Program-made: the position numbers and the translations under genes
Source: Acidimicrobiales bacterium
GTDB lineage: Bacteria; Actinomycetota; Acidimicrobiia; Acidimicrobiales; Palsa-688
DNA: 64,000 nt
Reading direction: 5' to 3'
Assembly (NCBI GenBank): GCA_036378675.1
Contig: DASUWA010000055.1
Span: forward strand, 1 to 64,000
Part shown: one piece after another, positions 40,071 through 57,733 of the stretch
How positions within the stretch are numbered: the stretch's first letter is position 1
Layout of the letters: each line of letters starts with the position of its first letter
The notes under the pieces: model-generated
Databases searched by the model: none
What the model was told of the DNA's origin: nothing
The model's input: only the letters and a program-made list of their open reading frames with translations

Positions 40071-41326
40071 GCGAGCAAGGCCCGCATCTGCTGGAACGAC
40101 GTGTAGTTGGCCACGACGTCAACATCGGAGCAACCGGCTTCCGCAGCCAGGACAACGGCCTTGAGCAGATCGTCCTCGCGACGGTGCTCGACTCCCGCGT
40201 ACCGAAGGCGGACAGCGAGGTCACGGCTTCTCTCGCCCGTCGCGATCACCAACCGCCCCGCGAACCGCTCGAATGGAACGTCCCACAGCCAGGACGGATC
40301 GCGCCCGTCGGCTATCCGCGCGTTTATCGCGACCACCGCGGGAACGGGTGGTGGACGGAGAATGTCGAATACCTCGAGCCAGCCGGCAGGGTTCTTGGCG
40401 AGCAACAGGCGCGCGGCGATCGATCCAACCGAGACACTCGCGTAACGGCCCACCACCTCTTTCACTTCCGATAGCCCCGCGGCAGCGCTGGACTCGTCGC
40501 ACCCCAAGACCTCTGCAACCGACAGCGCCATCGCCGCGTTGGCCAGGTTGGCTCTTCCGGGCAGCGACACGCGAAGGTCGGTACGAGACCCGTCTGCCCG
40601 GACGATCGCGCCCGACTCGAGCCACGCGTCGAGAGGCGGCCTGCGGAAGTCGCAATTTCCGCACGCCCAGTCGCCGCCTTCCGAGAACTGGATCCTCCCG
40701 CCGCAAGCGGGACAGCCTGCGGCATCGTCGGTCCACGGAAGACCGGCGCCTATCCACCGGACGTCCTCAGCCAGGCCGGCTCCCCACACCACCATCGGGT
40801 CGTCGGCATTGGCGACAACGGTAACGGCCTCCTGCCGTGAAGTCCGATCGAATGTTCGCCGCCAGGCCGAGGCGAGCATGCGAACCTCGTTGTTGCGGTC
40901 CAGTTGGTCGCGGCTCAGGTTGAGGAGCGCGACCGCCCTGGGTGACGTGGCATCGACGACTTTTCCCAACCAGGCCTCGTCGACCTCCAGCGCCGCGAAC
41001 GGGGCGTCAGGCATCTCGGCCAGCGCTGCTGCAAGGCCCGGGGGAAGGTTCGCCCCGAGAAGGTTGGTAGCGACGGGACCGGAGCCGGAAAGCGCCGCCC
41101 GTAGGAGGCTCGTGGTCGTCGTCTTGCCATTGGTTCCGGAAACCAGCGCAATCGCCCGGCCGGCTGCCAGCCTCGAGAGACCTAGCGGATCGACGGCGAG
41201 GATTGCCCTCCCTCCCACGACGGACCCGCCACCGCGTCCCAAACGCCTCGACGTCTCGGATACTGCGGACCCGACTGCCGCAGCGACGCGGGTCCTCAAC
41301 GGCAGCTTGTGAGAAATAGATGACAC
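40067..41326 (-). CDS. murT: lipid II isoglutaminyl synthase, Mur ligase subunit MurT
   Basis: Mur-ligase-like partner of GatD that activates the D-Glu carboxylate of lipid II. 419 residues from GTG 41326. ATP loop LVSGTNGKTTTTSLLR near residue 60, ALLNLSRDQLDRNNEV, and the MurT-specific zinc ribbon CPACG..CGNC near residue 215-240 inserted in the central domain. C-terminal DUF1727 region with PAVVAINARIADGRDPSWLWDVPFE (in part). The start is chosen because homology begins at LPLRTRVAAAVG. Codons further upstream are antisense to ligD-like. Confidence 0.93.
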   Translation of the reverse strand: MSSISHKLPLRTRVAAAVGSAVSETSRRLGRGGGSVVGGRAILAVDPLGLSRLAAGRAIALVSGTNGKTTTTSLLRAALSGSGPVATNLLGANLPPGLAAALAEMPDAPFAALEVDEAWLGKVVDATSPRAVALLNLSRDQLDRNNEVRMLASAWRRTFDRTSRQEAVTVVANADDPMVVWGAGLAEDVRWIGAGLPWTDDAAGCPACGGRIQFSEGGDWACGNCDFRRPPLDAWLESGAIVRADGSRTDLRVSLPGRANLANAAMALSVAEVLGCDESSAAAGLSEVKEVVGRYASVSVGSIAARLLLAKNPAGWLEVFDILRPPPVPAVVAINARIADGRDPSWLWDVPFERFAGRLVIATGERSRDLAVRLRYAGVEHRREDDLLKAVVLAAEAGCSDVDVVANYTSFQQMRALLA

Positions 41327-41340
41327 CTTCCGACCGAGGG

Positions 41341-41346
41341 TACCGT
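41341..41346 (+). promoter_or_regulatory. -10 element of the LigD-like polymerase gene
   Basis: TACCGT ends 7 bases before the ATG at 41354, supporting that ATG over the GTG at 41345, which overlaps the box. Confidence 0.45.
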
Positions 41347-41353
41347 GGCGGCG

Positions 41354-42370
41354 ATGGCCGCCGAGGAGACAGTCGTCATTGAGTCGTGCGGACACGAGGT
41401 GTCGATTTCCAGTCCCGGAAAGGTCTTCTTTCCGGGATCGGGCCACACCAAGCTCGACCTTGTCGATTACTACCGCACGGTAGAAGACCCACTGATGCGT
41501 GCAATGGGCGGCCGGCCCGTACTGCTTCAGCGGTTCCCGCATGGCGCGGGCGGTCAGTCTTTTTTCCAGAAACGGGTACCCGAGAAGCACCCCGACTGGC
41601 TGCAGACGACGATCGTGGCCACACCGAACGGCACCACCTCGGAAGCTCTCGTGGCCGCCGACATCGCCCACGTGCTGTGGGCCGTGAATCTGGCGTGTCT
41701 CGGCTTCCACGTGTGGCCGTACAAGGCCTCGGATCCGGACCACGCGGACGAGCTACGCATAGACCTTGATCCCTCGCCGGGCGTGACGTTCCCGATGATC
41801 CGGGAGGCGGCTTTCGAAACCCGTCGACTCCTGGACGGCCTTGGGTTGACCGGGCTGCCCAAGACGACCGGCAACCGCGGCGTTCACATCTACGTACGCC
41901 TCGAGCCGCGATGGTCGTCGCTCGACGTGCGAGCTGCAGCTGTTGCCGTAGCGCGCGAGTTGGAACGCCGGCGCCCGGACCTCATCACCGCTGCTTGGTG
42001 GAAGGAGGAACGCGGCGCTCGGGTGTTCGTCGATTTCAACCAGAACGCGCCGCACAAGACCGTATTCGGGGCTTGGTCGGTCAGGGCCCGACCCGGTGCG
42101 CAGGTTTCGACTCCATTCGCGTGGGAGGAGCTCGGCTCGATCGAACCGGACGAGCTCACCATCGACTCGGTGCCTCTTCGAGTCGCCGCGAACGACGACC
42201 CGTGGAATCCAGCGCCCCCTCAATCGTTGGAGCCGCTACTCGACTTGGTTCGGCGTGATGCGGAAGAGCGTGCCCTACCTGATGCTCCGTGGCCGCCCGT
42301 CTATCCGAAGATGCCGGGAGAGCCCCCTCGGGTCGCTCCGAGCCGGGCGAAGAAACCGAAAGAGGCATAG
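41354..42370 (+). CDS. stand-alone LigD-type DNA polymerase/primase domain protein
   Basis: About 338 residues of the archaeo-eukaryotic primase fold found in LigD of bacterial non-homologous end joining. SISSPGKVFFPGSGHTKLDLVDYY, RPVLLQRFPHGAGGQSFFQKRVPE, the metal-binding LRIDLDPSPGVTF (catalytic Asp pair), TGNRGVHIYVRLEP and FVDFNQNAPHKTVFGAWSVRARPGA (in part). No ligase, nuclease or Ku gene adjoins it, so it acts alone or with partners elsewhere. Leaderless ATG 41354; GTG 41345 is the alternative. Confidence 0.9.
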   Translation: MAAEETVVIESCGHEVSISSPGKVFFPGSGHTKLDLVDYYRTVEDPLMRAMGGRPVLLQRFPHGAGGQSFFQKRVPEKHPDWLQTTIVATPNGTTSEALVAADIAHVLWAVNLACLGFHVWPYKASDPDHADELRIDLDPSPGVTFPMIREAAFETRRLLDGLGLTGLPKTTGNRGVHIYVRLEPRWSSLDVRAAAVAVARELERRRPDLITAAWWKEERGARVFVDFNQNAPHKTVFGAWSVRARPGAQVSTPFAWEELGSIEPDELTIDSVPLRVAANDDPWNPAPPQSLEPLLDLVRRDAEERALPDAPWPPVYPKMPGEPPRVAPSRAKKPKEA

Positions 42371-44276: not shown

Positions 44277-44280
44277 TCGG

Positions 44281-44306
44281 GCGACGCCGCCACCAAACGG
44301 CGTCGC
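44281..44306 (+). terminator. GC-rich hairpin after the MocR gene
   Basis: GCGACGCCG (44281-44289) and CGGCGTCGC (44298-44306), 9 perfect base pairs around the loop CCACCAAA, 4 bases after the MocR stop. No T-tract, as is usual in high-GC actinobacteria. Confidence 0.55.
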
Positions 44307-44309
44307 GCC

Positions 44310-44315
44310 TACTCT
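44310..44315 (+). promoter_or_regulatory. -10 element of the leaderless LON-domain gene
   Basis: TACTCT ends 6 bases before the GTG at 44322. Confidence 0.5.
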
Positions 44316-44321
44316 CGCCGG

Positions 44322-44975
44322 GTGCCCCGTCGGATTCCGGTGTTCCCGCTCGGAACGGTGCTCGTCCCGCACGGCATCCTGCCGTTGCACATCTTCGAGC
44401 AGCGGTACCGGGCTTTGATGAACGACCTTCTTTGGGACGAAGCGAGCGGATCGCCGCGGAACGTGGAAGACGGAGTCGAACCCGAGATCGGCGTCGTGCT
44501 GATCGAACGTGGGAACGAGGTGGGCGGAGGGGAGCAGCGATCGATGTTCGGGACGGTCGCCCGTTTTCTCGATGTCGACCGCACCGCCGACGGCCGGTTC
44601 CTTGTGGTCATCGGGGGAACCCGAAGGTTCTCCGTGGTTAGCTGGCTACCAGACGACCCATATCCGATGGCGGACGTCGAGGAACAGCCGGACGAGACGT
44701 GGGACCCAATATGGACCGACGCACTCGACGTCGCCGAACGCGAAGTGCGCCGGGCGCTTGCGCTCGCCGGAGAGCTGGCGGACGTCCCGGTGTTGCCGCC
44801 GCTGACGCCCGATCCTCTCGAGGCCATGTGGCAGCTTTGCGCTGCGATACCCGTCGGGCCTTTCGATCGTCAGCGGCTGCTCGCCGCCGATGGGGTGGCC
44901 GTCAGGCTTACTTTGCTCGCCGAGTTGGCGGGCGACGCGGCGTCGTTGATTGCATTCAGGCTGGGCCAGATCTGA
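44322..44975 (+). CDS. LON substrate-binding domain protein
   Basis: 217 residues containing only the N-terminal (PUA-like plus helical) domain of Lon: IPVFPLGTVLVPHGILPLHIFEQRY, VVLIERGNEVGGGE, GTVARFLDVDRTADGRFLVV (in part), RRFSVVSWLPDDPYPMADVE. No ATPase or protease domain, so it is a stand-alone LON-domain protein of uncertain role, possibly substrate recognition. Leaderless GTG. Its 3' end overlaps the convergent coupling-protein gene by 20 bases. Confidence 0.88.
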   Translation: MPRRIPVFPLGTVLVPHGILPLHIFEQRYRALMNDLLWDEASGSPRNVEDGVEPEIGVVLIERGNEVGGGEQRSMFGTVARFLDVDRTADGRFLVVIGGTRRFSVVSWLPDDPYPMADVEEQPDETWDPIWTDALDVAEREVRRALALAGELADVPVLPPLTPDPLEAMWQLCAAIPVGPFDRQRLLAADGVAVRLTLLAELAGDAASLIAFRLGQI

Positions 44976-46713
44976 CGTCGGGTCCGACGTGGGCCGCTGG
45001 CAGTGCGCGCCGTCGCAGCATGGGGTCAGCGAACCAGGGACGGAGCCGGAGCCGGACGGGTGCCAGATGTCCGTATATGAGGATGGCTTCCCCCGGCGGT
45101 ACTCGGCGTAGGCGGTCGGATGGAAGCAACCGCCGAAACGCCACCGCCGACGAGCGTGTACGCCGCCCGTCGGTTTGGTCGAGGGTGTAGCTCTCCTCAC
45201 GAATCGCCTGCTCCCCCGCAAGGCCGGACAGCAGATCGAGAGTCGGGAGATCGGAGACGCCGGAGAGCAGCAGCTTGGCCCGGTGGTTGTTGACGATCGT
45301 CCGCGCCCTCTCGTTCCCGTAACGGCTCGACAGCTGCCCGAGGTCCTGGCAAACGGTCACCAACTGAACGCCGAGTCCGGCACAGGTCGATGCGAGAGTG
45401 TCGAGATCGCGTACCGGCGCGATGTTCGCCGCCTCGTCGAGCACCACTAGCAGCGGCGGATCTAGGGGGCGGCCCGTTCGGGCGACCCGGTCCACGGCAA
45501 CGGCGATCACCGACGAGACCAGCGCGGCAAAGACGCCCTGGACCCGCGCCTGCTCGTGGCTCGGGCCGCACAGGTACAGACTCCCTCGCGCATTGATGAG
45601 GTCGTCGAGGTCGAAGTCGGTCGAGGACGTCCAGGCGGCGACTGTCGGATCCTCGAAGGGGGCGAGAACGGTCTCCAGCGTGGTCGCCACCGAACTGCGG
45701 ATCCGCTCGTCCCGTCGTTCGCACGCCGACAACGCCAACGCCGCGTCGTCCTCGCCGGCGATTTGGAGCGCTTGTCCCGGCTCATTGAACTCGGACGTGT
45801 TGGTCCAGCGGACCACTTCTGCCATGCTCCATCCCCCCGAGTTGGCCGCCAGAAGTAAGGGAGCGAGTTGCTTCGAAGCGGCCGCGTACCAGAACGCCGC
45901 GTCTGCCATGCCGGCGCGAGCCGGGGTCGCATCTACCATCCAGGAGGCGGTGCGCTGGGCCCCGGTCCAGTCCCGACAGAGCGCGAGCGGTGACCAACTG
46001 GCCAGCGGTGCCAACCCCGATCCACCCGTCGGATCGAAGATCCACACCGGGCCCTGAGTCGAACGCCAAGGTGTCGTGTGCCGAGCGAGGTCGTCCTTGA
46101 CAGACGTCGCCACCGCTGGGCCGTCCCATTCCAGGAGAGCCGGGATAGCGAGCCCCGAGGTCTTTCCTGATTGCGTAGGACCGAGGACGAGGACGGAGTG
46201 GCGCGCTTCGGTAGCCACGAGCGGCTTCAAGTACAGACCCCCGAGACGACCCAGTGCTAGTCGGGGCCGGCCACGCCGTGACCGGGTTCTCAGCACGCGA
46301 GTATCGGTGCGTGTCGCCCACCGCGCTCCGTCCTTGCGGGCTGCAGACATAACGCCGTTCAGGTTGGCGATCCGCCGGACGAAGATGCGCGCCGAGAGGG
46401 TCGCGAAGACGGACCCGAGCATGACGATGGCCGCAAATAGGTAATAGACGAGCGCCCCGGGACCCCGGTCAGTTGTCGTCGTGGTTGACAGTGTCCACGC
46501 TCTTGCGGGTTCCCGGGCGTGTCGCCAAAGCGCGGCGAGGGCGCGGAGGGAATCAGTGATTGGCCGCGGTAACGAGTGCCCGGTAACGGCTATCCAGGCA
46601 GCCTGCGCGGACAGCCAGTTCAGCAACGCAACAGCCCCAACGATGGCCACGCCGGCAAACAGCAATGACGCAACTGGATCGCTGCGGAACTCGCGGGGCG
46701 GTGGTCCCCTCAA
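44956..46713 (-). CDS. type IV coupling protein (VirD4/TraG-like ATPase)
   Basis: Inner-membrane ATPase that links a relaxosome to a type IV secretion channel. 585 residues: two N-terminal helices (about 15-42 and 86-108), Walker A GPTQSGKTS near 178, WIFDPTGGSG, Walker B PPLLVVLDEAANIAP near 430 and a TraG/TraD C-terminal recognition motif VQLVTVCQDLGQLSSRYG. Start is TTG 46713, overlapping the VirB4-like stop as TTGA. Last gene of a five-gene minus-strand run (pilin, TrbL, SCO6880, VirB4, T4CP), all with overlapping or near-touching ends. Confidence 0.88.
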   Translation of the reverse strand: MRGPPPREFRSDPVASLLFAGVAIVGAVALLNWLSAQAAWIAVTGHSLPRPITDSLRALAALWRHAREPARAWTLSTTTTTDRGPGALVYYLFAAIVMLGSVFATLSARIFVRRIANLNGVMSAARKDGARWATRTDTRVLRTRSRRGRPRLALGRLGGLYLKPLVATEARHSVLVLGPTQSGKTSGLAIPALLEWDGPAVATSVKDDLARHTTPWRSTQGPVWIFDPTGGSGLAPLASWSPLALCRDWTGAQRTASWMVDATPARAGMADAAFWYAAASKQLAPLLLAANSGGWSMAEVVRWTNTSEFNEPGQALQIAGEDDAALALSACERRDERIRSSVATTLETVLAPFEDPTVAAWTSSTDFDLDDLINARGSLYLCGPSHEQARVQGVFAALVSSVIAVAVDRVARTGRPLDPPLLVVLDEAANIAPVRDLDTLASTCAGLGVQLVTVCQDLGQLSSRYGNERARTIVNNHRAKLLLSGVSDLPTLDLLSGLAGEQAIREESYTLDQTDGRRTRSSAVAFRRLLPSDRLRRVPPGEAILIYGHLAPVRLRLRPWFADPMLRRRALPAAHVGPDVRSGPA

Positions 46714-48014
46714 GATTGCGGCGTTCCGGCGTCTACCGTCATACCCGTGTCGCGCATGGCGAAGTCGGTGTCGACGAAAGGAGCTTCGATTCCGCCGACG
46801 ACATGCTCAACAAGGAAGGATCGCCCGCCGACCCTCCACAACGCGATCCCGCGGGGCAGGTGGACAATGACGTCGCGTTCTGTACGTGACAACGACAGAA
46901 GCTCCGAAGTCAAGTCCGCTTCGGAAGCCGGTTGCCCGAAAGCGACCCTGGTCTCCGAGTCGGCGAGCAACCCTTGTGCGAGCCTTTGCTGAACCGACCC
47001 CTGGGCTCCGGCAGCCTTCAAGTCGGACAGTCTGTGCACGACGGCCAGGGTTGAAACCCCAAAGGAGCGGGAGAGCTTGAACACCGACCGCAGCCAGCGA
47101 GCAGCGGCCAGATCATGCAGAATCGCCCAGGCCTCGTCGATCACGACCAGCCTCTTCACACGATCCCGCCTAGACAGCGCGGATTGCATCCACCCGGTGG
47201 CGCAGCTCATCAGGAGTGCCAATGCCGGGGACATGTACACGCTCGAAAGATCAAGCACCACCAATCGACCCGAAAGGTCGACGTGGGACGAGGTAGGACC
47301 GTCGAACATGCCCGCGAGATCACCTTCGACCAGACGCCTCAACTCGAGCGCGACCAGCCTTCCGTCCTCGGCAAGCGAAACCCGGTCCGTATACACGGCG
47401 GCCGCGGCTTCCTCCCGGGGATCCAGCAACAGCCGAACAACGTCGCTGAGTGTCGGCTTGCGAGATGTCGTCGACGCCGAACGAACCGCGAGCTCGACAG
47501 CGGTGCGCTCGGCCGGCGTCAATACCCGACCGAGCGTCGATTCGCCAAGTGAGCAGACCAGGTCGGCCTGACGGCGGGTGACCATTAGCAAGTCATCCCG
47601 CGATGGTGAGGCCGGCGCTCCAAGGTCGAGAGGGTTGAGGCGCACCTGGCCGCCCGGACGCAAGACAACCGGCTCCACACCCACCGCCGCCGCGAGCGGG
47701 CCGTACTCTCCCTTCGGATCGAGGATCCAGGCTTGTCGGCCAAAAATCATCTGCCGCCAGACGAATGTCTTGACGAAGGTCGACTTCCCGCGGCCGACCT
47801 GACCGAGGACGATCAAGTTCGGGTTGGTGAGAACCTCGGCCCCGTACAGAACCCACGGATCGAAGCAAAACGGCCCGCCGCCCAGCAGATCCCTTCCGAT
47901 GAAGGGGCCTTGCTCACCCAGGCCGATGTCACTGATGAAGGGATAGACAGCCTGCAGATTCGCTGTGGTCGCCCGGTGGGCCGGGGGCTCCGGCGCCCTG
48001 GCTCTGGTGATCAT
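46710..48014 (-). CDS. VirB4-like conjugation ATPase
   Basis: 434 residues, the C-terminal ATPase half of VirB4 only. Walker A VLGQVGRGKSTFVKTFVWR near 70, AWILDPKGEYGPLAAAVG, Walker B RLVVIDEAWAILHD near 290, and the arginine-finger region VHRLSDLKAAG. The N-terminal substrate domain of full VirB4 is absent; its role may be taken by the SCO6880 family protein encoded just upstream, as in other actinobacterial systems. ATG at 48014, 6 bases after that gene's stop. Confidence 0.87.
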   Translation of the reverse strand: MITRARAPEPPAHRATTANLQAVYPFISDIGLGEQGPFIGRDLLGGGPFCFDPWVLYGAEVLTNPNLIVLGQVGRGKSTFVKTFVWRQMIFGRQAWILDPKGEYGPLAAAVGVEPVVLRPGGQVRLNPLDLGAPASPSRDDLLMVTRRQADLVCSLGESTLGRVLTPAERTAVELAVRSASTTSRKPTLSDVVRLLLDPREEAAAAVYTDRVSLAEDGRLVALELRRLVEGDLAGMFDGPTSSHVDLSGRLVVLDLSSVYMSPALALLMSCATGWMQSALSRRDRVKRLVVIDEAWAILHDLAAARWLRSVFKLSRSFGVSTLAVVHRLSDLKAAGAQGSVQQRLAQGLLADSETRVAFGQPASEADLTSELLSLSRTERDVIVHLPRGIALWRVGGRSFLVEHVVGGIEAPFVDTDFAMRDTGMTVDAGTPQS

Positions 48015-48020
48015 CGGCCT

Positions 48021-49463
48021 TCAGCGCAGACCGCGCGCCAATGGAAGCGTCCATGTGAACGCCTCCCGCTGGCGCCCGTACAGCCTGCGAATCTCGAGGT
48101 GGGCCGCCTGAGCAGCATGCTCCGTCTCGGCGCAAGCGAGACCGAGACCTTCGCGGTCCGGCGCGCTCACAGTTATGTACCCGGAGAATCGGTACTCCAC
48201 GTGCCCGCGGGCAAGCTCTTCCTCGCGGCGGACCGGTCCCTCCGCCTCTTTATCCCTCCGTGCGCTCGGCGTGAATCCCGCGTTGGTCCGAATGTGTTCC
48301 TCCGCGACATCGGCAGTGCGCGCGGATCGCGCTTCGCGTGCGGCCCGTACCGCCGGGACCGGAGCCATTATCAGTGAAGTCGCCCGCCGTTCCCCTCCCA
48401 TGAGCAAAGGACCCATGAAGTCTGGGCCCACTTGGATTCGAGGCCATTCGGCAATCCAGTAGGTGGCATGGCAGGCGTGATCCGCTTGAACGAACGACCA
48501 GCCTTCCGCTTCGGCCATCGGGCTGAAAGGACGAGTCAGCTTGGAGCGCCGAGATGTCGCTGGACGATTGGTGTGCGCGGCTTCGAGGACCGTGGCCAGC
48601 GCGACCGCATCGAGCGGGCCTGCTGTCCACATGCCGGCGTTGCGGAGTTGCCCTTCCAATAGGCGGAGTTCCCTGCGGACGGTCTCGCTGGCACGCCGCC
48701 CGCTAGGGCCTCCTGCCCAGGCGGGTCCCGGGACTGCCAGCACAAGCCATACCTCGCGCGTTTGCCACGAGGTTGCGGCGGTTCTCACGACTTCGAGGTA
48801 TCCGTCAACCTCGCCGCGCGCGCACGAAAGAGCCTCGGCCCTTTCTATCAACGGAGCCGCTCCCGCCGGCGACGTCCGTTCTACCCACTGAAGCCGGCGC
48901 ACTGGCGTCCCCGGCCTGCCGATCGAATTCAAAACGACGCGCCAGGACTCCAGGCTGCGGGCCTGCTCCTCGGGATCGAGCAACGAGAAGGAACCACCCC
49001 TGACCGGGACGACGGCAGCCCAGCTGCCCGCGCTCCTGTCGAGCAAAACGCCGACCGGTGGCTGACCAGCTTCGGCGGTCAGCTCGACAAGATCGATCCC
49101 TGTCGGGCCGGCGAAGGCGCGACCGCACGAACCTCGCGGTGTCGACTGGCGAGGCGTGCGCAACCCGTCAGTCGGTTCTGGTGACAGCACCGGGCCGTTC
49201 ATGTTGCGGACCAGCCACGTAAGGCCCCACCTCAACCATGAAGCCGCTGATTGGCCGTCCTTAGACCAGAAAGCAGCGCCAGATGATGCAACGAAGGCGA
49301 GGAACGCGAGCGGTGGTCCTGCAAGCGATCGAAGAACCCGGGCAGTGACCCATGCGACAAGCAATCCGCCGGATGCGATGCCGATCTGAACCGGTTGCAG
49401 GCCTAGCAGCAGTCCTCGTCGCTCGAGCGGGTCGAACGAGTACCGGGCTACGCGTTCATCCAT
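48021..49463 (-). CDS. SCO6880 family conjugation-associated membrane protein
   Basis: 480 residues. The start YSFDPLERRGLLLGLQPVQIGIASGGLLVAWV with two membrane helices (about 20-40 and 48-66) is the SCO6880 hallmark of actinobacterial conjugative and integrative elements. The cytoplasmic remainder contains an alpha/beta module (GVLLDRSAGSWAAVVPVRGG, WVERTSPAGAAPLIERAEAL) thought to pair with the VirB4 ATPase. Overlaps the TrbL-like gene by 8 bases. Confidence 0.82.
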   Translation of the reverse strand: MDERVARYSFDPLERRGLLLGLQPVQIGIASGGLLVAWVTARVLRSLAGPPLAFLAFVASSGAAFWSKDGQSAASWLRWGLTWLVRNMNGPVLSPEPTDGLRTPRQSTPRGSCGRAFAGPTGIDLVELTAEAGQPPVGVLLDRSAGSWAAVVPVRGGSFSLLDPEEQARSLESWRVVLNSIGRPGTPVRRLQWVERTSPAGAAPLIERAEALSCARGEVDGYLEVVRTAATSWQTREVWLVLAVPGPAWAGGPSGRRASETVRRELRLLEGQLRNAGMWTAGPLDAVALATVLEAAHTNRPATSRRSKLTRPFSPMAEAEGWSFVQADHACHATYWIAEWPRIQVGPDFMGPLLMGGERRATSLIMAPVPAVRAAREARSARTADVAEEHIRTNAGFTPSARRDKEAEGPVRREEELARGHVEYRFSGYITVSAPDREGLGLACAETEHAAQAAHLEIRRLYGRQREAFTWTLPLARGLR

Positions 49464-50535
49464 CGCTTCCTCCCGCTGGTATTCGGTAATCGGGTGCCCG
49501 AACCGCCAAGGGTTGAGCAGTCACCGGAGACGTCTGAGGCCGAGCACTCTCGCTGGTCGTCCGCGCAGCGAGCAGCCGCATCACCAGTGGATTGGTAGGC
49601 GCGGCGACCGCCGATGCCGCCCGGGTCGCCGCGCGAAACGGCCGCCGCGCTACCCCCTCGAGGTGGGCGATGACGTCTACATCGGCAATCGGGACGAACC
49701 TGAGCAGAACGAACGGTGCGAAGGAAGCGATGAGCAGAATGCCCGCGCCTTCCAGTGCTCCGTCGATCGACCGATCGCCCGCCACCGTCGACATTCCCAG
49801 CCAGAGCGTTGCAAAGATGACGAACTTCGATAGGACGAGCGCGATCAGAATCTGTACCGATCGCTTGGCTATCGCGGCCGTGGCCGGCCATATGTATGTC
49901 ACCAGGCAAAGTGGCATGAAGAAGACGGCGACATAGATCGCCGCAGACCTGAGCACGAGTTCCAGCCAGACGAGGACCGCCCCGGCGAGCGCCAACAGGC
50001 CGATGCCGATCGTTACCAGCGCCGGCGAGCCGGTGGCGAACGCATCGCTCGCCAGGTTCTGAAGTGCCCCGTGGACGTTGAGATGAGTGCCGACCACCGT
50101 CGAGGTCAGCGAGTCCGTCGCTCTGATCGCAAGATCGGTGAGAACCGTGGCTGCAGCGGCCGCCAGAACCGCCACCGGAAGCCCAACGGCCCAGACCCGG
50201 CCCAAACGTCTCAAGTCCTGGCGGACGATCGAACCGATCGTCGCCACCAGCAAGATGGGCGTGACTACCGCCTCGAAGGCCTTTGCTGTCGCTCGATAGG
50301 CGGTACGGAACCAATCTGCCCCGACGTTCGGGGTTACGCCGAACAGGCCAGCCACGTGACCGATGAGCCACGTGTCCGCGGCAGAAAGGTATGAGATGAA
50401 GGCACCCATCAGCCCGTCTGCGATGGCACCGGCAGTGGACCCCGCCAGGTCGCTGCCGAGCGGGCTGACCGTGCAGCCGGACAACCCGACGATCGGCAGG
50501 CAGGGAAACCCTCCGTCCGGCGAAACCTGGATCAT
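49456..50535 (-). CDS. TrbL/VirB6-like channel membrane protein
   Basis: 359 residues. A luminal N-terminus, then at least six hydrophobic helices (VVTPILLVATIGSIV, VGLPVAVLAAAAATVLTDLAI, ALVTIGIGLLALAGAVLVWLEL, AAIYVAVFFMPLCLVTYIWP, IALVLSKFVIFATLWLGM, GILLIASFAPFVLLRFVP). The order and the motif LRSAAIYVAVFFMPL match actinobacterial TrbL/VirB6-type proteins. The hydrophilic tail is Ala/Thr/Pro-rich. ATG at 50535 abuts the pilin-like stop (TGATG). An overlapping frame of 378 residues is a shadow. Confidence 0.8.
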   Translation of the reverse strand: MIQVSPDGGFPCLPIVGLSGCTVSPLGSDLAGSTAGAIADGLMGAFISYLSAADTWLIGHVAGLFGVTPNVGADWFRTAYRATAKAFEAVVTPILLVATIGSIVRQDLRRLGRVWAVGLPVAVLAAAAATVLTDLAIRATDSLTSTVVGTHLNVHGALQNLASDAFATGSPALVTIGIGLLALAGAVLVWLELVLRSAAIYVAVFFMPLCLVTYIWPATAAIAKRSVQILIALVLSKFVIFATLWLGMSTVAGDRSIDGALEGAGILLIASFAPFVLLRFVPIADVDVIAHLEGVARRPFRAATRAASAVAAPTNPLVMRLLAARTTSESARPQTSPVTAQPLAVRAPDYRIPAGGSDG

Positions 50536-50834
50536 CAGAGCCTGGCGCCTTTATCCACGAAGAAGGTGATGATCTGCGGTGCACCGCCTATCAGGACGGC
50601 GGCGAGGGCGGAGACCATCACGCCGCGACGTCCGTTGACCGCCTGCTGGTAGTTGTGCGAGTAGTGGCCGAACGCCCAGATCACTGCTCCGACAATCAGG
50701 CCGAGCAGGGCGGCCATCAGCGCCCATCCGTCGATTCCGTTGGCGAGCGACTGAAGAACGTGCGACCCCGGAAGCTGGGCCGAATCGGGTTGGACGGTGG
50801 GACCGTCGCTCGGCAGCGATAGGAGCATTTGCAT
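50535..50834 (-). CDS. TrbC/VirB2-like pilin or DUF6112-like membrane protein
   Basis: 99 residues with two hydrophobic helices (ALMAALLGLIVGAVIWAFG and GVMVSALAAVLIGGAPQIITFFV) separated by a short polar loop HYSHNYQQAVNGRR, the topology of VirB2/TrbC pilins and of the DUF6112 proteins next to SCO6880 homologues. No obvious signal peptide. ATG at 50834 with GGAGGTG ahead. First gene of the conjugation run and divergent from the relaxase. Confidence 0.72.
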   Translation of the reverse strand: MQMLLSLPSDGPTVQPDSAQLPGSHVLQSLANGIDGWALMAALLGLIVGAVIWAFGHYSHNYQQAVNGRRGVMVSALAAVLIGGAPQIITFFVDKGARL

Positions 50835-50864
50835 CCGGCACCTCCGTGGTTGGGTTGGGAGGAG

Positions 50865-50903
50865 TATTTCATAGTTTTTAATGCTTCGCTAGTGTGTTTC
50901 ATA
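50865..50903. promoter_or_regulatory. A/T-rich divergent promoter region with a repeated T(A/G)TTTCATA motif
   Basis: TATTTCATA (50865-50873) and TGTTTCATA (50895-50903) repeat 30 bases apart between the pilin-like and relaxase genes. The stretch is unusually A/T-rich. TAGTGT at 50890-50895 lies 7 bases before the relaxase ATG. Confidence 0.45.
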
Positions 50904-52999
50904 TGTTGGTTCTGAAGCCCGTTGGCGACCGGGTCGCCGGCTACTACCTGAAGCAAGGGCCCGGCGAATGGCTGGGCCGAGGTTCGGACCGTCTCGGCCT
51001 GCACGGCGGAATCGAGGCGGCGGCAATGACAGCCGTCCTGCGAGGCTGCGATCCGTCGCGGGGCGTCTACCTGCCTCGGGTCAAGTCGCCTCGCCGGCGA
51101 GCGGGATGGGACCTGGTGTTCGCGGCTCCCAAGTCCTTGTCTCTTGTGTCCGCGACATCTTCTGGAACCGCTTCGGATCTCGAGCCGTCTATCGGGTTCG
51201 CCCATCGATGCGCGGTAAGAGGGGCTGTCGAGCACTTGGAACGGGAGTCCGGCAAGGAAATCGTCGGAGCTGCCTTCGACCACCTGCACAACGCCGGCGG
51301 TGAGCCCCACCTGCACACCCACGTGCTGGTCGCAAACCTCGCGCCCACAGCTGCCGGCTGGGCTGCCCTTGGAACTTGGCTGCACAGGGAGGAACTGGCG
51401 GCCGTGTACCACCTGGGACTTCGATACCATCTCGACCGAACCGGATTGCAACTCGACTGGCGGATCCGTTCAAACGGGTTGCCGGACTTGGCAGTAGTGC
51501 CCCGCGCGGCAGTTCGCGCCGCTAGCACCCGCAGCCACGAATCAAGGGGCGGAGCAGGTTGGGCCGGTCGCAACGGACCGCCCAGAGCGTGGGGGGCAGC
51601 GGTGCTCCATGCCGGGTGGGGTTCCTCCCATGCGTCTCGCGCCGCCCACGAGTCGATGGGCCCTCGCTCGTCCGTTACGCCAGGCGCCGCGTCCCTTGAA
51701 GCTCGAGTGAGCGCGCGACTGCTCACCAGGGGTTCGACCTTCACCAAGCGCGATGTCATCGCGGCTCTCGCCGCTGCGTCGCAAGCTGGCTTCGACGCAG
51801 AGGCCGCCACTTCGTGGGCGGACGCATTCTTCAACGCATCGAGCCCGATCGGCTCGGATGTGGGAGCTGACCGGCGGACCACTACACGAGCCGTGGACGC
51901 TGATCGCCGACTAGCCGCGCTGATCGAACGGCGTGCGGAGCGACGAGCTCAGGGAGTTGCCGCCGGAGATTTGGAAACGGCTGCCCAGCTTGACCCAACG
52001 CTGTCGTCGCGTTCGCGCGAGACAGTCCGATCCCTCGTTGGTAACGAAGGAGTTGTCCTGCTCGCCGCGGGTCCCGGGCGCTCGAACTTCGTTGCCGACG
52101 CGGCTATCGGAGCAGCATGCGCGTCAGTGTGGGAATCCCACGGAACGACCGTCGGAGTCGCGGCCCGTAGCGCGGCCGAAAGCGCGAGATGGGCCGCGCT
52201 TTCGGGCATCGAGGCCTTTCACCCTTCGGTGCGTCCGGACGTACTGATCGTCGACCAGGCCGACCGGCGGCCGCCTGGGGAGCTCATGGCTCTGCTGTCA
52301 GCCGCACCGGAAGCCAAGGTCGTCTTCGTTGAAGGAGGAACCCTTCCGCGAACTCGCGTTGACGGCTCACTCGGTTACAGCCAAACGACTACCGCCCTCA
52401 CTCGACTCGATCCGGGACCGGCGCCTGAGTGGCGCGCTCTCCCAGACGTGCCGCTTGCCGGTGCATTGACTGGTGTCGCCGCCGGCAAGCTGCTCGACCA
52501 CTGGGCTCAGTCGTTCGGAGTTGCCCGCACGGAGAATCCCACGATGGTTGGGCTCGGGGTGCCCGAAACCCTGGCGCTGAACGACGCCGCCCGGCGACAC
52601 CTCCTCGACACCGGCCGCCTCGACGGTCCGTCGATCCAGTCCCGCGGCCGTGCCTTTCAGACCGGTGATCGAGTCGTTGCCATCCGCGGCGCCGGCGCTG
52701 GGCTGCCGGCCGGCACGGTCGGCACGATCGTCGAAGTCGACCCAAAGCGGCGAAGCGCAATGATCAGCTGGACCGACCGCGCTACCGAGATGAAACGCGA
52801 TCAGCTTGGGACGATCGGGCACGCGTACGCGGCCACTCCCCGGTTGGCGTCTCGTATGGAAGGACCGGTATTCGTTCTCGGGCGGGCAGAAGGCCTCGGT
52901 ATCGAACGCTCTAGAGTTGCCGCTCAGATCTCGGTGGAGCGACGGGGGCCGGCGCTCGAACGCGAGAGACACCGTGTCATAGTCGGCCGTGAGCTTTGA
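50903..52999 (+). CDS. MobF-family relaxase with degenerate helicase domain
   Basis: 698 residues from the leaderless ATG at 50903 (GTG 50894 alternative). TrwC-type relaxase domain in residues 1-300: adjacent Tyr14-Tyr15 (VAGYYLKQG), WLGRGSDRLGL, FAAPKSLSLVSA and the metal site His127, His138, His140 (FDHLHNAGGEPHLHTH). A helicase-like region follows, but Walker A reads LLAAGPGRSN near 389, without the GKT/S lysine, and Walker B reads VLIVDQAD near 446. The late RVVAIRGAGAGLPAGTVGT stretch matches the SH3-like insert of TraI/RecD2 helicases. It can probably nick DNA but not unwind it. Confidence 0.87.
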   Translation: MLVLKPVGDRVAGYYLKQGPGEWLGRGSDRLGLHGGIEAAAMTAVLRGCDPSRGVYLPRVKSPRRRAGWDLVFAAPKSLSLVSATSSGTASDLEPSIGFAHRCAVRGAVEHLERESGKEIVGAAFDHLHNAGGEPHLHTHVLVANLAPTAAGWAALGTWLHREELAAVYHLGLRYHLDRTGLQLDWRIRSNGLPDLAVVPRAAVRAASTRSHESRGGAGWAGRNGPPRAWGAAVLHAGWGSSHASRAAHESMGPRSSVTPGAASLEARVSARLLTRGSTFTKRDVIAALAAASQAGFDAEAATSWADAFFNASSPIGSDVGADRRTTTRAVDADRRLAALIERRAERRAQGVAAGDLETAAQLDPTLSSRSRETVRSLVGNEGVVLLAAGPGRSNFVADAAIGAACASVWESHGTTVGVAARSAAESARWAALSGIEAFHPSVRPDVLIVDQADRRPPGELMALLSAAPEAKVVFVEGGTLPRTRVDGSLGYSQTTTALTRLDPGPAPEWRALPDVPLAGALTGVAAGKLLDHWAQSFGVARTENPTMVGLGVPETLALNDAARRHLLDTGRLDGPSIQSRGRAFQTGDRVVAIRGAGAGLPAGTVGTIVEVDPKRRSAMISWTDRATEMKRDQLGTIGHAYAATPRLASRMEGPVFVLGRAEGLGIERSRVAAQISVERRGPALERERHRVIVGREL

Positions 53000-53007
53000 T
53001 AGGACAC

Positions 53008-54111
53008 CTACGGACCAGAGACGTGATCGGTCCAGGCGTAGCCGTCCCACCATCGCCAGTAATGGATACCTGAGGGGTCCGGGTACCACCCCGGTGAAAC
53101 CCATGACGAGGACGGCCGCGGGCCAGAGGACGGCCACTCGCTGGACGACGCCCACTCGCTTGAGGGAGGCCAATAGCCTCCCCCGCCCGCACTCCCCCCC
53201 GGCGACCAACCGACGCGAGCCGCACGATCCCGGTCGCCCCGCTCGACAGCCCAGGTGATCGGGGCGGCGATCCATATCGCGACGGTGATCAGCAGAGCGA
53301 CGCCGGCGACCGCCGCCCACCGCTGAGACAGAAAACCGACCGTGTCCCACGCGGCATGCGTAACGATCAACGGGATCAACGCCTGGGTGCGAAGGTATAT
53401 CCAAAGGAAGATCGCCGCCCACACCACGATCCCGACAACGCCGGGCCCGTAATAGATGTGATACGACCCGCGCAGCACCAGAGCGACCACGACGATCTCC
53501 CAAAGTGGGCGGCGAGCCTGGCGCAAAGTGACGACGAGGAACGCCAGGACCACGAGCTCCTCGACTATGCCTGCCTGCACCGAATCGGCGACTCCGAACA
53601 GCAGCTCTGGCGCCGACGGCTTTGTCGTCGGCAAGTGCCCCGTCTGCAGGACTGCGTTGACGATCCCTCCGACGATCTGGGCGAAGATCGCCCAGGCGAA
53701 GATTCGGGTGGTCGCACCGGCCGCGAACCGACCGTCGGGTTTGCGCTGCCAGCGCAAACCCAACGTGGCAGGCGAAACACCGCGGCGAGAAGACAGCAGC
53801 AACACCAGGACAACAGCAACCGCCGACTGCATCAGCACTTCGATCGCTTGGGGCACGTAGAGCGCCCAGCTCGCGTTGGAAAGGACGTCCTTGTAGCGGT
53901 TGGCCAGCAGGAGACCGGCGGCGATCACTCCGGTGAGGAAGAACGCCGAGAACGTGAACAGGACCTCCAGGTACGCCCGCTTTGCGGTGATCGGCGCCAG
54001 TTCGGGAGCCGGGGCCGGAGACCACCAGTGTCTTTTCTTCTCCGGAGGGAACGACCCGGGTGGAGGAGGCGGAAGGGCCCCCGTCGCCGCCACGGTCCGC
54101 TCGTGCATCAC
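53008..54111 (-). CDS. CPBP family intramembrane metalloprotease with DUF2510 tail
   Basis: 367 residues. Pro-rich cytoplasmic start, then about eight membrane helices with CPBP (Abi/CAAX protease) motifs: VEELVVLAFLV (Glu-Glu), LRGSYHIYYG (His) and VTHAAWDTVGF (His and Asp). A Gly/Ser linker leads to a DUF2510 tail SPGWYPDPSGIHYWRWWDG with WTDHV, a small actinobacterial module of unknown role. GTG 54111 or ATG 54108 start. Nine bases from the convergent relaxase end. Confidence 0.85.
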   Translation of the reverse strand: MMHERTVAATGALPPPPPGSFPPEKKRHWWSPAPAPELAPITAKRAYLEVLFTFSAFFLTGVIAAGLLLANRYKDVLSNASWALYVPQAIEVLMQSAVAVVLVLLLSSRRGVSPATLGLRWQRKPDGRFAAGATTRIFAWAIFAQIVGGIVNAVLQTGHLPTTKPSAPELLFGVADSVQAGIVEELVVLAFLVVTLRQARRPLWEIVVVALVLRGSYHIYYGPGVVGIVVWAAIFLWIYLRTQALIPLIVTHAAWDTVGFLSQRWAAVAGVALLITVAIWIAAPITWAVERGDRDRAARVGWSPGGSAGGGGYWPPSSEWASSSEWPSSGPRPSSSWVSPGWYPDPSGIHYWRWWDGYAWTDHVSGP

Positions 54112-54181
54112 CGTAGGGTGCCACAGGGCTCACAGACGGCGCGCGTATCTTCAGTGTTTACAGCGCGAATATGCGAAGAAC

Positions 54182-55270
54182 GTGACCACCCCACCCGATC
54201 CGCCGATCGTCGCGCCCTCAGCCGGCCGGTGGTATCAGGTCTGGCGAGTGGCCCGGTACCTTCTCGGGCTGGCCGCTGTTGGCTTCGCGGCGTGGATCGT
54301 GAGCGGCAAAACCGACGAGCTCTCCGGCGCCACCACCTACCTCCGTCACCTCCGCTGGTGGTGGGTCGCGGTTGCAGTCGGCGCCGAAGCGGTCTCCTAC
54401 CTCGCGCTCGCCTCTCTGCAACGCCGACTCCTTCGCTCCGGCGGGGTTCGGGTCCCCATGGCTCCGATGACGGGCATTGCCCTGGCAGGGAACGCGATCG
54501 CGAACTCGCTCCCGGGCGGCCTGGTCTTCTACTCGGCGTACAACTACAGGCAGTACCGTCGCTTCGGCGCGGACGAGGTGCTCGCGGGCTGGACCTTGGT
54601 CGCCTTCAATGCGGTCACTTTTGTCAGCCTGTCGGTGATCTCCTTGGTCGGCTTGACGATGGCCTTGACCGCGGGCAACGCATACGACCTCGTGGAGGCG
54701 ATTCTCGGAATCGCGATCTTCGCCGGCCTGATCGTCATCCTCTGGGCGGAAAGGGTGTGGTTGCTGAGCCACATCACCCGCGTTGTGGCGTTGAGCCAGC
54801 GAGTGCTCCGGCACCCTTCACCCAGTCGCTCGGCCGGGGACGTCGTGCACGGATGGGTCGACCGGATGAGCGCGATCACTCCAAGCCGGCGCAACTGGGC
54901 CAGGGCGATGGTCATGGGATTCGGCAACTGGATCGCCGACTGCGCTTGCCTTGTACTCGCGTTCATGGCAGTGGGCGCCGGCGTCCCCTGGCGTGGGCTG
55001 CTCCTCGCGTACGGCGCCGGCCAACTCGCGGCCATCCTGCCGATCACCCCGGGCGGTCTCGGGGTGGTCGAAGGCAGCATCACGGTCGCATTGGTCACCT
55101 TCGGAGGGGGTCAGGCCTCTACCGTGGCGGCCGTGCTCCTCTACCGGCTGATCTCCTTCTGGCTGCTTCTGCCTGTGGGATGGGCATCGTGGCTGGCGTT
55201 GCTGATTGCCGGGCGGAACCATGACCGCAGCACCGTGGTCCCAGAACCCGAACGGTTGGCTGCGACATGA
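54182..55270 (+). CDS. YbhN/UPF0104-like membrane protein (lysylphosphatidylglycerol flippase-type)
   Basis: 362 residues with about eight helices and the UPF0104 pattern: LRWWWVAVAVGAEAVSYLAL, GNAIANSLPGG, LSVISLVGLTM, FGNWIADCACLVLAFMAVGAGVPW (in part) and ILPITPGGLGVVEGSITVAL near the end. Members are lipid or glycolipid flippase-like proteins. GTG at 54182 chosen. Upstream frame runs antisense to the CPBP gene. Ends with ATGA overlap to the lipoprotein gene. Confidence 0.82.
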   Translation: MTTPPDPPIVAPSAGRWYQVWRVARYLLGLAAVGFAAWIVSGKTDELSGATTYLRHLRWWWVAVAVGAEAVSYLALASLQRRLLRSGGVRVPMAPMTGIALAGNAIANSLPGGLVFYSAYNYRQYRRFGADEVLAGWTLVAFNAVTFVSLSVISLVGLTMALTAGNAYDLVEAILGIAIFAGLIVILWAERVWLLSHITRVVALSQRVLRHPSPSRSAGDVVHGWVDRMSAITPSRRNWARAMVMGFGNWIADCACLVLAFMAVGAGVPWRGLLLAYGAGQLAAILPITPGGLGVVEGSITVALVTFGGGQASTVAAVLLYRLISFWLLLPVGWASWLALLIAGRNHDRSTVVPEPERLAAT

Positions 55271-55734
55271 GCCGGGGGCACGCGGGCGTCGTGCGTATTC
55301 ACGCGAAACTGGCGGCCGCCATCGTCGCCGGCCTGCTCCTGGGCCCCACCGCTGCCGCCTGTAGCTCGACTCCGACTCCCGGCCTGTCCAACGGGTCGGT
55401 CAGCGCCTGCTACCGGGCGATACCAACAGCCCGGAAGGCCATCCACGACACGCACGCGACGCTGATCGGCGTTCACCGAATTCCCGCCGACAAGGTCAGG
55501 TCCCACCTGCCGCCCGCCGAGCAGCATCAGCTCGATGAACTCGCCGGCGACAACGACACGACCGTCTGCTCGGTCGCCTTCCACGGCAGGTTCACCCCCG
55601 GGCAGGTGGAGCTCGCCCCTCCCGGGGAGTCGGGCAGCTACGCGATCGTCCTGGTCAGCAGCAAGAGGCTCAAGCTGATCGACACCGCGGTCCTGAACCG
55701 CCTCCCCCGCTCGCTCGGCAGGAGGCTCGTCTGA
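55267..55734 (+). CDS. small lipoprotein of unknown function
   Basis: 155 residues. Signal VRIHAKLAAAIVAGLLLG with lipobox TAAACSS near residue 32, marking surface anchoring. The mature part has two cysteines (VSACYRAIPTA, TVCSVAFHGRFTPG) and a helix IHDTHATLIGVHRIPADKV. No family recognised. ATGA overlap with the YbhN-like gene and 4 bases before the adenine methylase, so all three are one transcript. Confidence 0.72.
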   Translation: MSRGHAGVVRIHAKLAAAIVAGLLLGPTAAACSSTPTPGLSNGSVSACYRAIPTARKAIHDTHATLIGVHRIPADKVRSHLPPAEQHQLDELAGDNDTTVCSVAFHGRFTPGQVELAPPGESGSYAIVLVSSKRLKLIDTAVLNRLPRSLGRRLV

Positions 55735-55738
55735 GCCG

Positions 55739-56809
55739 GTGATCAAATACATCGGATCCAAACGCCGCCTGGTTCCCGTCCTCGGCGAGCTGCTCGTCCG
55801 GGCCGGCGCGCGCACCGCACTCGACATGTTCACCGGCACCACTCGGGTTGCTCAGGAGTGGAAGAGACGCGGCGCTCACGTGACCGCTGTCGACGTCGCC
55901 CGCTACTCGGCTGTCCTCGCCGAGTGCTTCATCGCAACCGACGCCCGCGAGATCGATGTCCAATCGCTCAACGAGGCAATTTTTCATCTGCAGCGCCTGC
56001 CCGGAAGCGACGGCTACGTCACCGAGACGTTCAGCCGCCAGGCCAGGTTCTTCCAGGAGGACAACGCCCGACGCATCGACGCAATACGCGACGCGATCGA
56101 GCTCGAGTGGTGTGGGCATCCGTTTCGGCCGCTGCTACTGACCAGCCTTCTGCTGGCCGCCGACCGGGTCGACTCGACGACCGGAGTCCAGATGGCCTAC
56201 CTCAAGCAGTGGGCCCCCCGCTCGTACCAGCCCCTCGAGCTGAGGGTGCCGGAGCTGATTGCCGGCGAGGGACGGGCGCTTCAGGGAGACGCCGTCGACG
56301 TCTCTTCACAGCTTCCCGAGGTCGACCTCGCCTACCTCGACCCTCCATACAACCAGCACCGCTACTCGGGCAACTACCACGTGTGGGAGACACTGATGGC
56401 CTGGGACAATCCCGACCATTACGGGGTGGCGTGCAAGCGGGTGGGGTTGAGAGGCGAGGAGGGGGTGAGCGTTTTCAACCGGCGGCGCGAGGCGCCGGCT
56501 GCGATGGCCGCGCTTGTGTCGGGGCTCAAGGCTGAGGTCGTGTTGATCTCCGGGAGCGACGAGGGGTGGATCCCCGTCGAGGACCTTGCCGACATGGCGT
56601 CGGGATGTGGGGCGGTCGAGATTCTGGCGTTCGACTCGCGTCGCTACATCGGATCGCAGATCGGGGTATTCGACCCTCAGGGGAAAAAGGTCGGCATCGC
56701 CGGCAGAGCGCGCAACACCGAATTCCTGGTCGTTGCGGGGCCGGCGAAGGTCGTCTCGCGTATGTGCGTGGGGTATCCCACGGCCACCCGTGAAGGGTTA
56801 GCCGGTTAG
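55739..56809 (+). CDS. D12-class N6-adenine DNA methyltransferase (orphan)
   Basis: 356 residues. N-terminal MIKYIGSKRRLVPVLGELL, a SAM motif LDMFTGTTRVAQEW, and the catalytic DPPY motif LAYLDPPYNQHRYSGNYH near residue 200, in the order of class D12 (Dam-like) methylases. No restriction endonuclease or second subunit adjoins it, so it looks like a solitary methylase with regulatory or protective use. GTG at 55739, 4 bases after the lipoprotein stop. Its 3' end overlaps the convergent sigma factor gene by 12 bases. Confidence 0.85.
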   Translation: MIKYIGSKRRLVPVLGELLVRAGARTALDMFTGTTRVAQEWKRRGAHVTAVDVARYSAVLAECFIATDAREIDVQSLNEAIFHLQRLPGSDGYVTETFSRQARFFQEDNARRIDAIRDAIELEWCGHPFRPLLLTSLLLAADRVDSTTGVQMAYLKQWAPRSYQPLELRVPELIAGEGRALQGDAVDVSSQLPEVDLAYLDPPYNQHRYSGNYHVWETLMAWDNPDHYGVACKRVGLRGEEGVSVFNRRREAPAAMAALVSGLKAEVVLISGSDEGWIPVEDLADMASGCGAVEILAFDSRRYIGSQIGVFDPQGKKVGIAGRARNTEFLVVAGPAKVVSRMCVGYPTATREGLAG

Positions 56810-57733
56810 GAGCTCGCGTGCGCCGCGGTCGGTGGAGGGGTGGCGCAGCTTGGACATCGCCCGCGCCTCGATCTGGCGGATCCTCTCCCGGGTGAGGCTG
56901 AAGTGCTCGCCGACCTCGTCCAGGGTGCGGGGCTCGCCCCTGTCCAGACCGAAGCGAAGGCGGAGTATCTCCCGCTCGCGCTCGTCGAGGGCTATCAGCA
57001 TCTTGTTCACTTCGCCCGACAGGAGGGCTGCCGCAGCCGCGTCGAAGGGGGAGACCGCCGAGCGGTCCTCGACGACGTCGCCCAGCTCGGCGTCGCCGTC
57101 CTCGCGAAGGGGCTCGGACAACGAGAGCGGCTCGGCGGCGTGACGCAGGATCTCGGTGACCTTCTCCTCTTCGAGCTCAAGGTCGGCCGCAAGCTCGGCG
57201 ACCGTCGGCCGGCGCCCGAGCTGGCCTTCCAGCCGGCCCCTCGCCTTAGTGACCCGGGTGAGCAGGTCGCCGGCGTGGACCGGGAGACGCACGGTGCGGC
57301 CGGTGTTGGCGATGCCTCTGGTGATCGCCTGACGGATCCACCATGTGGCGTAGGTGGAGAACTTGAAGCCCTTGCGCCAGTCGAACTTCTCGACCGCATG
57401 CATCAGACCGAGGTTGCCTTCCTGGACCAGGTCCAGCAGGGGCAGTTCGGCAGCCTGATACTTCTTGGCGATAGACACGACCAGCCGGAGGTTCGCCTTT
57501 ACGAACGTCTCGGCGGCGTCGTCGCCTTCGCGGATCTGGCGGCGCAGCTCCCGCTTGCGCGCGGGAGTGACGGTCTTACCTGACGCCATCTCGGCTCTCG
57601 CCTCACGCCCGGCCTCGATGGCCTGGGCCAAGCGCGCTTCGTCATCCTTGGTGAGAAGTGCGTGCTTCCCGATGTCGTTCAGATAGAGGCGGACCAGGTC
57701 CTCCTCGGGCTGAGCGGCGTGGTTGTTGGGCAA
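56798..57733 (-). CDS. RNA polymerase sigma-70 factor, group 2 (SigB/HrdB-like)
   Basis: 311 residues, lacking region 1.1 as in group 2 sigmas. Region 1.2 VRLYLNDIGKHALLTKDDEARLA, regions 2.1-2.4 with KANLRLVVSIAKKY, LDLVQEGNLGLMHAVEKFDW and FSTYATWWIRQAITR (-10 recognition), region 3, and region 4.2 TLDEVGEHFSLTRERIRQIEARAMSKLRH (-35 recognition, in part). Could be the principal or a secondary housekeeping factor. TTG start at 57733 with GAGG ahead. Confidence 0.93.
   Translation of the reverse strand: MPNNHAAQPEEDLVRLYLNDIGKHALLTKDDEARLAQAIEAGREARAEMASGKTVTPARKRELRRQIREGDDAAETFVKANLRLVVSIAKKYQAAELPLLDLVQEGNLGLMHAVEKFDWRKGFKFSTYATWWIRQAITRGIANTGRTVRLPVHAGDLLTRVTKARGRLEGQLGRRPTVAELAADLELEEEKVTEILRHAAEPLSLSEPLREDGDAELGDVVEDRSAVSPFDAAAAALLSGEVNKMLIALDEREREILRLRFGLDRGEPRTLDEVGEHFSLTRERIRQIEARAMSKLRHPSTDRGARELLTG

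Follow-up and report, generated by a model that had tools for sequence, protein, structure and literature searches.

Within a 64,000-nucleotide stretch of an Acidimicrobiales genome (contig DASUWA010000055.1, positions 1 to 64,000; hereafter, the window), positions 44956-52999 hold a compact set of conjugation genes facing a MobF relaxase gene. We regard it as likely that this locus is a domesticated conjugation machine: a type IV secretion system (T4SS) inherited vertically with the chromosome, equipped with its own relaxase and acting on host chromosomal DNA, not on a mobile element. Passing on or processing the cell's own DNA is its probable use. Genes for conjugation are generally seen as belonging to mobile elements. 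In this case, a T4SS and a relaxase whose active site is conserved have both been retained on the chromosome, and the helicase motor of the relaxase discarded, across one family and much of its order. Within the family, the conjugation gene set has become a lasting, vertically inherited chromosomal feature, and in much of the order it is split over two places. If chromosomal DNA is indeed transferred, the system would account for gene flow within a large group that is mostly uncultured and would allow direct tests, in bacteria, of how bacterial "sex" arose, how it is regulated, and what benefit it brings.

Gene content of the locus and state of the relaxase

Five module genes lie on the minus strand, and a single divergent gene, the MobF relaxase, lies on the plus strand. 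The minus-strand genes encode a VirD4-type coupling protein (T4CP; 44956..46713; PF02534, E 3.9e-47, and TraG-D_C), the C-terminal ATPase half of VirB4 (46710..48014; AAA_10, P-loop_TraG, and VirB4-like NCBIfam models), an SCO6880 family protein (48021..49463; NF042935, 170 bits against a cut-off of 60), a TrbL/VirB6-like polytopic membrane protein (49456..50535; assigned by position and hydrophobic segments), and a VirB2/TrbC-like pilin of the DUF6112 type (50535..50834; PF19607, E 4e-10; PF04956, E 8e-7). The relaxase (PF08751, E 1.4e-32) occupies 50903..52999; its open reading frame was listed as 50894-52999, and the ATG at 50903 is the probable start. An earlier annotation made from the letters of the window (the sequence-only reading) had proposed the same identities for the pilin, TrbL/VirB6-like, SCO6880, VirB4-half, coupling protein, and divergent MobF genes, and the domain-model matches bear it out; the TrbL/VirB6-like protein has zero Pfam or NCBIfam matches, and a homologue was found in 22 family loci. 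The five genes had also been described as overlapping, which holds for three of the four minus-strand junctions (overlaps of 1-8 bp) and fails for VirB4/SCO6880, where there is a 6-bp gap. The G+C content of the locus (0.65-0.67) is similar to that of the remainder of the window, as had been stated. All module open reading frames are intact in the window, as are the Walker A motifs of VirB4 (GQVGRGKS; a Walker A is present in 49/49 VirB4 homologues) and of the T4CP (GPTQSGKT; the identical octamer occurs in 15 T4CPs of the set); a frameshift in a core ATPase, which the sequence-only reading held would undo its proposal, was looked for in the window and not seen.

An AlphaFold model of SCO6880 built from 39 sequences (predicted local distance difference test score, 86) gave Foldseek top matches that were all R388 TrwM/TrwK (VirB3/VirB4; E 1e-10), followed by ESX-3 (6umm). 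By its predicted fold, SCO6880 is the VirB3/VirB4 N-terminal part, so that SCO6880 and the short ATPase together would make up one VirB3-VirB4. The module is a minimal monoderm T4SS consisting of VirB2, VirB6, VirB3/4N, VirB4C, and VirD4, plus the MobF relaxase.

Across the family, the relaxase has retained its nuclease domain and lost its helicase motor. The HUH motif and active-site tyrosine are kept in 20/20 family relaxases covering the site, and residues Y17, D73, H130, H141, and H143, which we take to be TrwC Y18, D85, H150, H161, and H163, are invariant in the 16 that were aligned. A Walker A motif is present in none of 21 family relaxases versus all 7 conventional MobF controls, and the Walker B region reads DQAD in the window relaxase versus DEAS in a control from its own genome. 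The AlphaFold model (predicted template modeling score, 0.86) nonetheless gives the C-terminal half a TraI/RecD2-like helicase fold, with Foldseek matches to TraI (5n8o; E 3e-21), TrwC (1osb), and RecD2 (3gpl; 4e-14); omega, the ratio of nonsynonymous to synonymous substitution rates (dN/dS), is 0.12-0.26 in the nuclease part versus 0.28-0.43 in the helicase-like half. Among the features by which MobF proteins are recognized, the TrwC nuclease domain with its active tyrosine and three-histidine site is present, and a fused active superfamily 1B helicase is not. The protein thus resembles TraI of F and TrwC of R388 in its nuclease fold, catalytic residues, and C-terminal RecD2-like fold and differs from them in having no helicase motor motif and in sitting at a fixed chromosomal locus.

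Chromosomal site, descent, and selection

A synteny comparison, one of the checks suggested by the sequence-only reading, was made across a family sample of 32 genomes from 16 genera (G000 denotes the window's own genome), and it found the same site kept: at least part of the locus was seen in 30/32 genomes, flanked by the same chromosomal genes, and a VirB4 orthologue (at least 53% identity) was seen in 27/32. G008, G010, and G023 only seem to lack the module; their contigs break off within the locus, and they are therefore counted among the 30. Wherever family loci have enough contig, the same neighbours are kept. Family relaxases form one clade in the relaxase tree (100/99) and family VirB4s one clade in the VirB4 tree (95/90); multimember genera are monophyletic in both, and the window groups in both with G012, G001, g14, and g7. 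Pairwise distances of pilin, TrbL, SCO6880, VirB4, and relaxase correlate with those of rpoB (r 0.33-0.44, Mantel p 0.0002-0.0022). A dN/dS estimate for each module gene, likewise suggested beforehand, gave values of 0.07-0.47, similar to those of the adjacent MurT and LPG-synthase-TM genes; all module genes are under purifying selection.

These results bear directly on whether the locus is an integrative conjugative element (ICE), recent or decaying, that sits here by chance. Conjugation genes beside a MobF relaxase would fit such an element, the relaxase, T4CP, and VirB4 by which ICEs are recognized are all in the window, and the same genome has further copies that are ICE-like. However, a single insertion site is shared over about 16 genera, the trees are clade-wise, selection is purifying, and the ATPases are intact; ICE-like VirB4s, such as that on contig C43 of the window's genome, fall in clades separate from the family VirB4s; and instead of the sporadic presence with empty sites expected of an ICE, 30/32 family genomes carry part of the locus, with G007 lacking it. 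As the sequence-only reading had noted, no integrase was found in the window's module and no convincing att-like (attachment site) repeats flank it, a 15-bp pair (93%) and some weaker ones being all that was seen; no tRNA lies near the locus, the only one in the window being at 15.6 kb. We consider an ICE very improbable. Of the two possibilities left by the sequence-only reading, the worn integrative element thus falls away, given one site in about 16 genera, ATPases without frameshift, dN/dS below 0.5, and monophyletic genera; the domesticated system fixed in its lineage is supported, for a wider range that takes in much of the order, DNA transfer by it being our inference. The locus is likewise not the single-strain occurrence with flanking repeats and an integrase that had been set out as the contrary case; it is family-wide. 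As a separate observation, other contigs of the window's genome, G000:C43 (L069) and G000:C39 (L070), carry an SCO6880/VirB4 cluster of the ICE-like type as well as a full-length, Walker A-bearing MobF relaxase.

Several points weigh against a domesticated machine for DNA transfer. The compared genomes are mostly metagenome-assembled genomes (MAGs). In G007, which by rpoB (96%) is closer to the window's genome than any other sampled relative, the module was not found; it can therefore be lost and is dispensable. The correlation with rpoB is only moderate, as the proteins evolve fast, and for the T4CP it is nonsignificant (p 0.07, n = 8 genomes); in several family genera the T4CP is not beside the module. 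Neither a VirB8-like gene in the module nor an origin of transfer (oriT) was recognized. A related chromosomal cluster of Streptomyces coelicolor, cmdABCDEF (SCO4126-4131), which has differentiation and antibiotic phenotypes, played no part in moving the single plasmid examined, an SLP2 derivative (PMC2782261).

The cmd genes also provide the pattern for a second alternative, in which the module is a chromosomally encoded membrane complex that has ceased to handle DNA, the relaxase persisting as a regulator that binds DNA or as an initiator of replication. Like the present locus, cmd is described as chromosomal and combines membrane proteins with a VirB4-like protein (CmdB), cmdC and cmdD being related by its authors to SCO6880 and SCO6881 (PMC2782261); such related genes in a fixed chromosomal state, the unaffected plasmid transfer, the loss of the relaxase helicase, and the loss of the T4CP in some genera would all suit a complex without a DNA substrate. 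Unlike cmd, described as five membrane proteins and one ATPase with no relaxase (PMC2782261), the present system keeps both relaxase and T4CP. The nuclease catalytic residues are invariant, the nuclease domain is more constrained than the rest of the protein, and the T4CP is kept in many genera and adjoins the relaxase in some other families; it is therefore unlikely that the machine has abandoned DNA.

The flanks had been called chromosomal, with the LON domain and CPBP genes named, and fixed chromosomal neighbours are indeed present on both sides. The LON and MocR-type genes are outside the conserved set, and CPBP is found only in some relatives. Conserved on the right are the LPG-synthase-TM gene (53900..55270, plus strand) and a gene for a 155-amino-acid (155-aa) protein (55267..55734, plus strand), a pairing that recurs in other families, and a sigma-70 factor gene (56798..57733, minus strand; 92-98% identity in most relatives) forms a conserved locus boundary. 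On the left, NAPRT, GATase, MurT, and LigD-like polymerase genes (38035..42370) are conserved neighbours of T4CP or VirB4, preceded by a conserved ROK/polyphosphate glucokinase-like gene (37223..38038, plus strand) that adjoins the T4SS in other families of the order too. The LON-domain and GntR/MocR-type genes at 42096-44975, between the LigD-like polymerase gene and the T4CP gene, are missing in the compared relatives and are a local insertion in the window's genome.

Two further insertions were seen in relatives. Genera g13 and g7, with parts in g3 (L047), have an insert between virB4 and the T4CP gene (L033 12172-15975, L035 12040-15837, L050 4041-7836) that contains a 359-aa tyrosine-recombinase gene (copies 92-94% identical) and three small genes; the integrase-bearing insert occurs only in G006, G012, and G027, and its single site across genera makes it either a target-specific element or an old insertion. 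Genus g4 carries, between SCO6880 and virB4, a gene whose 697-aa product combines F5/8 type C (galactose-binding) domains with Ig-like ones (L059 10891-12984, L062 4794-6890, L071 4944-7040), a candidate surface adhesin of the machine. RpoB of the window's genome (L189, G000:C51:40064-43471) reads DHFANRR at a stretch where GNRR would be expected.

Two loci in other families and comparison with known systems

A partial sample of the order (248 genomes) showed that other families have relaxases that are nuclease only (~390-590 aa) or that carry a dead helicase, as in f28, where the Walker A region reads GASWAGST or GARWAGSS. Nuclease-domain trees are compatible with single or repeated helicase loss. 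In nearly all of 23 loci (20 plus three), the stand-alone or helicase-dead relaxase follows close behind pafB-pafC, which is located elsewhere in the window's family. The LPG-synthase-TM and 155-aa genes are often upstream of these pafBC-relaxase loci; their presence beside the window relaxase as well suggests one ancestral locus. A T4CP gene adjoins the pafBC-relaxase in five loci from four families (L168, L176, L177, L178, and L181), and other families keep the T4SS genes themselves at a second fixed site, close to the genes for seryl-tRNA synthetase, a PhoR-like histidine kinase, and ROK. A T4SS ATPase is found in 27/29 genomes with such a relaxase versus 70/219 without one, counts for which the relaxase class was assigned by hand and kinship was ignored; the two relaxase genomes without the ATPase are 67% and 89% complete. 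Two uncultured actinobacterial MAGs (L094 and L095) have only pilin and/or TrbL-like plus VirB4 genes beside ROK, with SCO6880 and T4CP not recognized, and represent a further reduced version of the module.

PafBC is a DNA-damage regulator, activated by single-stranded DNA (ssDNA) in mycobacteria (PMC11804915); the relaxase behind pafBC in other families suggests that, like archaeal Ced, the machine may be used under DNA damage. None of the open-access papers searched names both a relaxase and PafBC. The pafBC neighbourhood would also suit a third alternative, a DNA import or competence device like archaeal Ced or Helicobacter ComB, the latter a bacterial T4SS for DNA uptake (PMC12857230), in which the relaxase acts on incoming or own ssDNA for recombination. 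Ced and Ted, of Sulfolobales and Thermoproteales, are domesticated T4SSs for DNA import, and the present parts amount to the Ced/Ted set (VirB2, VirB6, and VirB4) plus VirD4 and a relaxase (PMC9905601). Those two additions are donor-side parts in known export systems, and no relaxase is known from Ced or Ted (PMC9905601); we consider import improbable, somewhat more so than a complex that has given up DNA.

For a domesticated machine acting on its host's own DNA, no bacterial case with this anatomy is described in the open-access literature that we searched, and archaeal Ced/Ted and Streptomyces cmd are closest in kind. Like Ced/Ted, the present system is a chromosomal, domesticated T4SS with a VirB2-like pilin, VirB6-like channel, and VirB4-like ATPase (PMC9905601); unlike them, it is bacterial, has VirD4 and a MobF relaxase with an intact nuclease site, and has SCO6880 as a separate VirB3/4N part. 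It is lineage-wide, chromosomal, and of the monoderm (MPF-FATA) kind, as are the T4SSs of Patescibacteria, but those mostly lack a relaxase (a single MOB-F is found there) and are thought to have other roles (PMC12102498). Actinobacterial chromosomal DNA exchange is known from mycobacterial distributive conjugal transfer and Streptomyces TraB, routes which use ESX or an FtsK-like TraB in place of a T4SS and relaxase (PMC12857230).

A shared tandem motif and a proposed mechanism

The AT-rich island between the divergent pilin and relaxase genes carries a tandem motif with a 10-bp period, TTTCATAGTTTTTAATG (50867..50883, plus strand; consensus TTTCATNNNNTTTCATG). It is followed by a -10-like TAGTGT at 50890..50895 (plus strand), predicted from the sequence, 7 nt before the ATG at 50903. 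Many family members have a TAnnnT -10-like box between the TTTCATNNNNTTTCATG motif and the relaxase start codon, a few bases before the start; the relaxase transcript is probably leaderless. When a motif matrix trained on the family only was applied to nonfamily loci, the best match of the whole locus was within 300 bp upstream of the pilin in 12/13 T4SS loci and of the stand-alone relaxase in 13/21 loci, or 25/34 combined versus 0.9 expected, statistics that ignore shared ancestry within families. The motif is rare: a genome-wide scan returned 38 sites in 20 genomes, and the reversed pattern returned 0.

Some of these sites lie away from T4SS genes. An exact motif precedes a gene pair, kinase-like plus a gene of unknown function with a weak FHA match, near ftsEX-prfB-secA in G000 and G006 (G000:C9:17082-17098, L264 9083; G006:C108:23143, L265 9644). 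An SLT/NlpC-P60 lytic enzyme, of a VirB1-like family otherwise seen adjoining T4SSs, is divergent from an exact motif in G006 and has a one-mismatch counterpart in G027; in the window's genome, a methyltransferase gene occupies the place of the G006 enzyme. In two sister genomes, the gene for the lytic enzyme that the sequence-only reading found missing thus lies at a different place, next to this promoter-like motif. The motif linking the loci, the family-wide dead relaxase helicase, and the second fixed locus, with the relaxase behind pafBC, in other families are new beyond that reading.

OmpR/PhoB-type regulators typically bind direct repeats of 10-11 bp, and a regulator of this type adjoins the T4SS, with its kinase, in another family; that such a protein reads the tandem motif is a suggestion only. 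We propose that a shared regulator would bind the motif and turn the gene set on. The relaxase would then nick chromosomal DNA via its active-site tyrosine, a host helicase (e.g., of the UvrD/PcrA type) would replace the lost relaxase helicase in unwinding, VirD4 would pass the relaxase-ssDNA to the VirB channel, and the ssDNA would exit toward kin cells or the medium. More tentatively, and with slightly less than even confidence, we suggest that this amounts to a native, regulated "mating" system for the cell's own chromosome in much of the order, comprising a helicase-less relaxase, T4CP, minimal T4SS, and lytic enzyme at two or three fixed loci under one cis-regulatory motif, possibly induced by ssDNA or DNA damage: a bacterial counterpart of Ced that has kept its relaxase.

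Two other readings of the motif seem less likely. It is not favoured as the relaxase's own oriT, because G053 has the motif, beside a Sir2 gene, with no detected relaxase or VirB4, and because the motif also precedes the lytic-enzyme and kinase-like genes. As for a PafBC promoter, the spacing does not look like that of the mycobacterial motif. The shared motif offers a handle for defining the whole regulon. It was also observed upstream of Sir2-family deacetylase genes in three families (L239, L251, and L257, in G077, G053, and G018, respectively) and of AbiEi/DUF559-like genes in two genomes (L238 and L258, in G079 and on G000:C17), both possible further regulon members by this placement, and one site lies beside a PepA-type gene.

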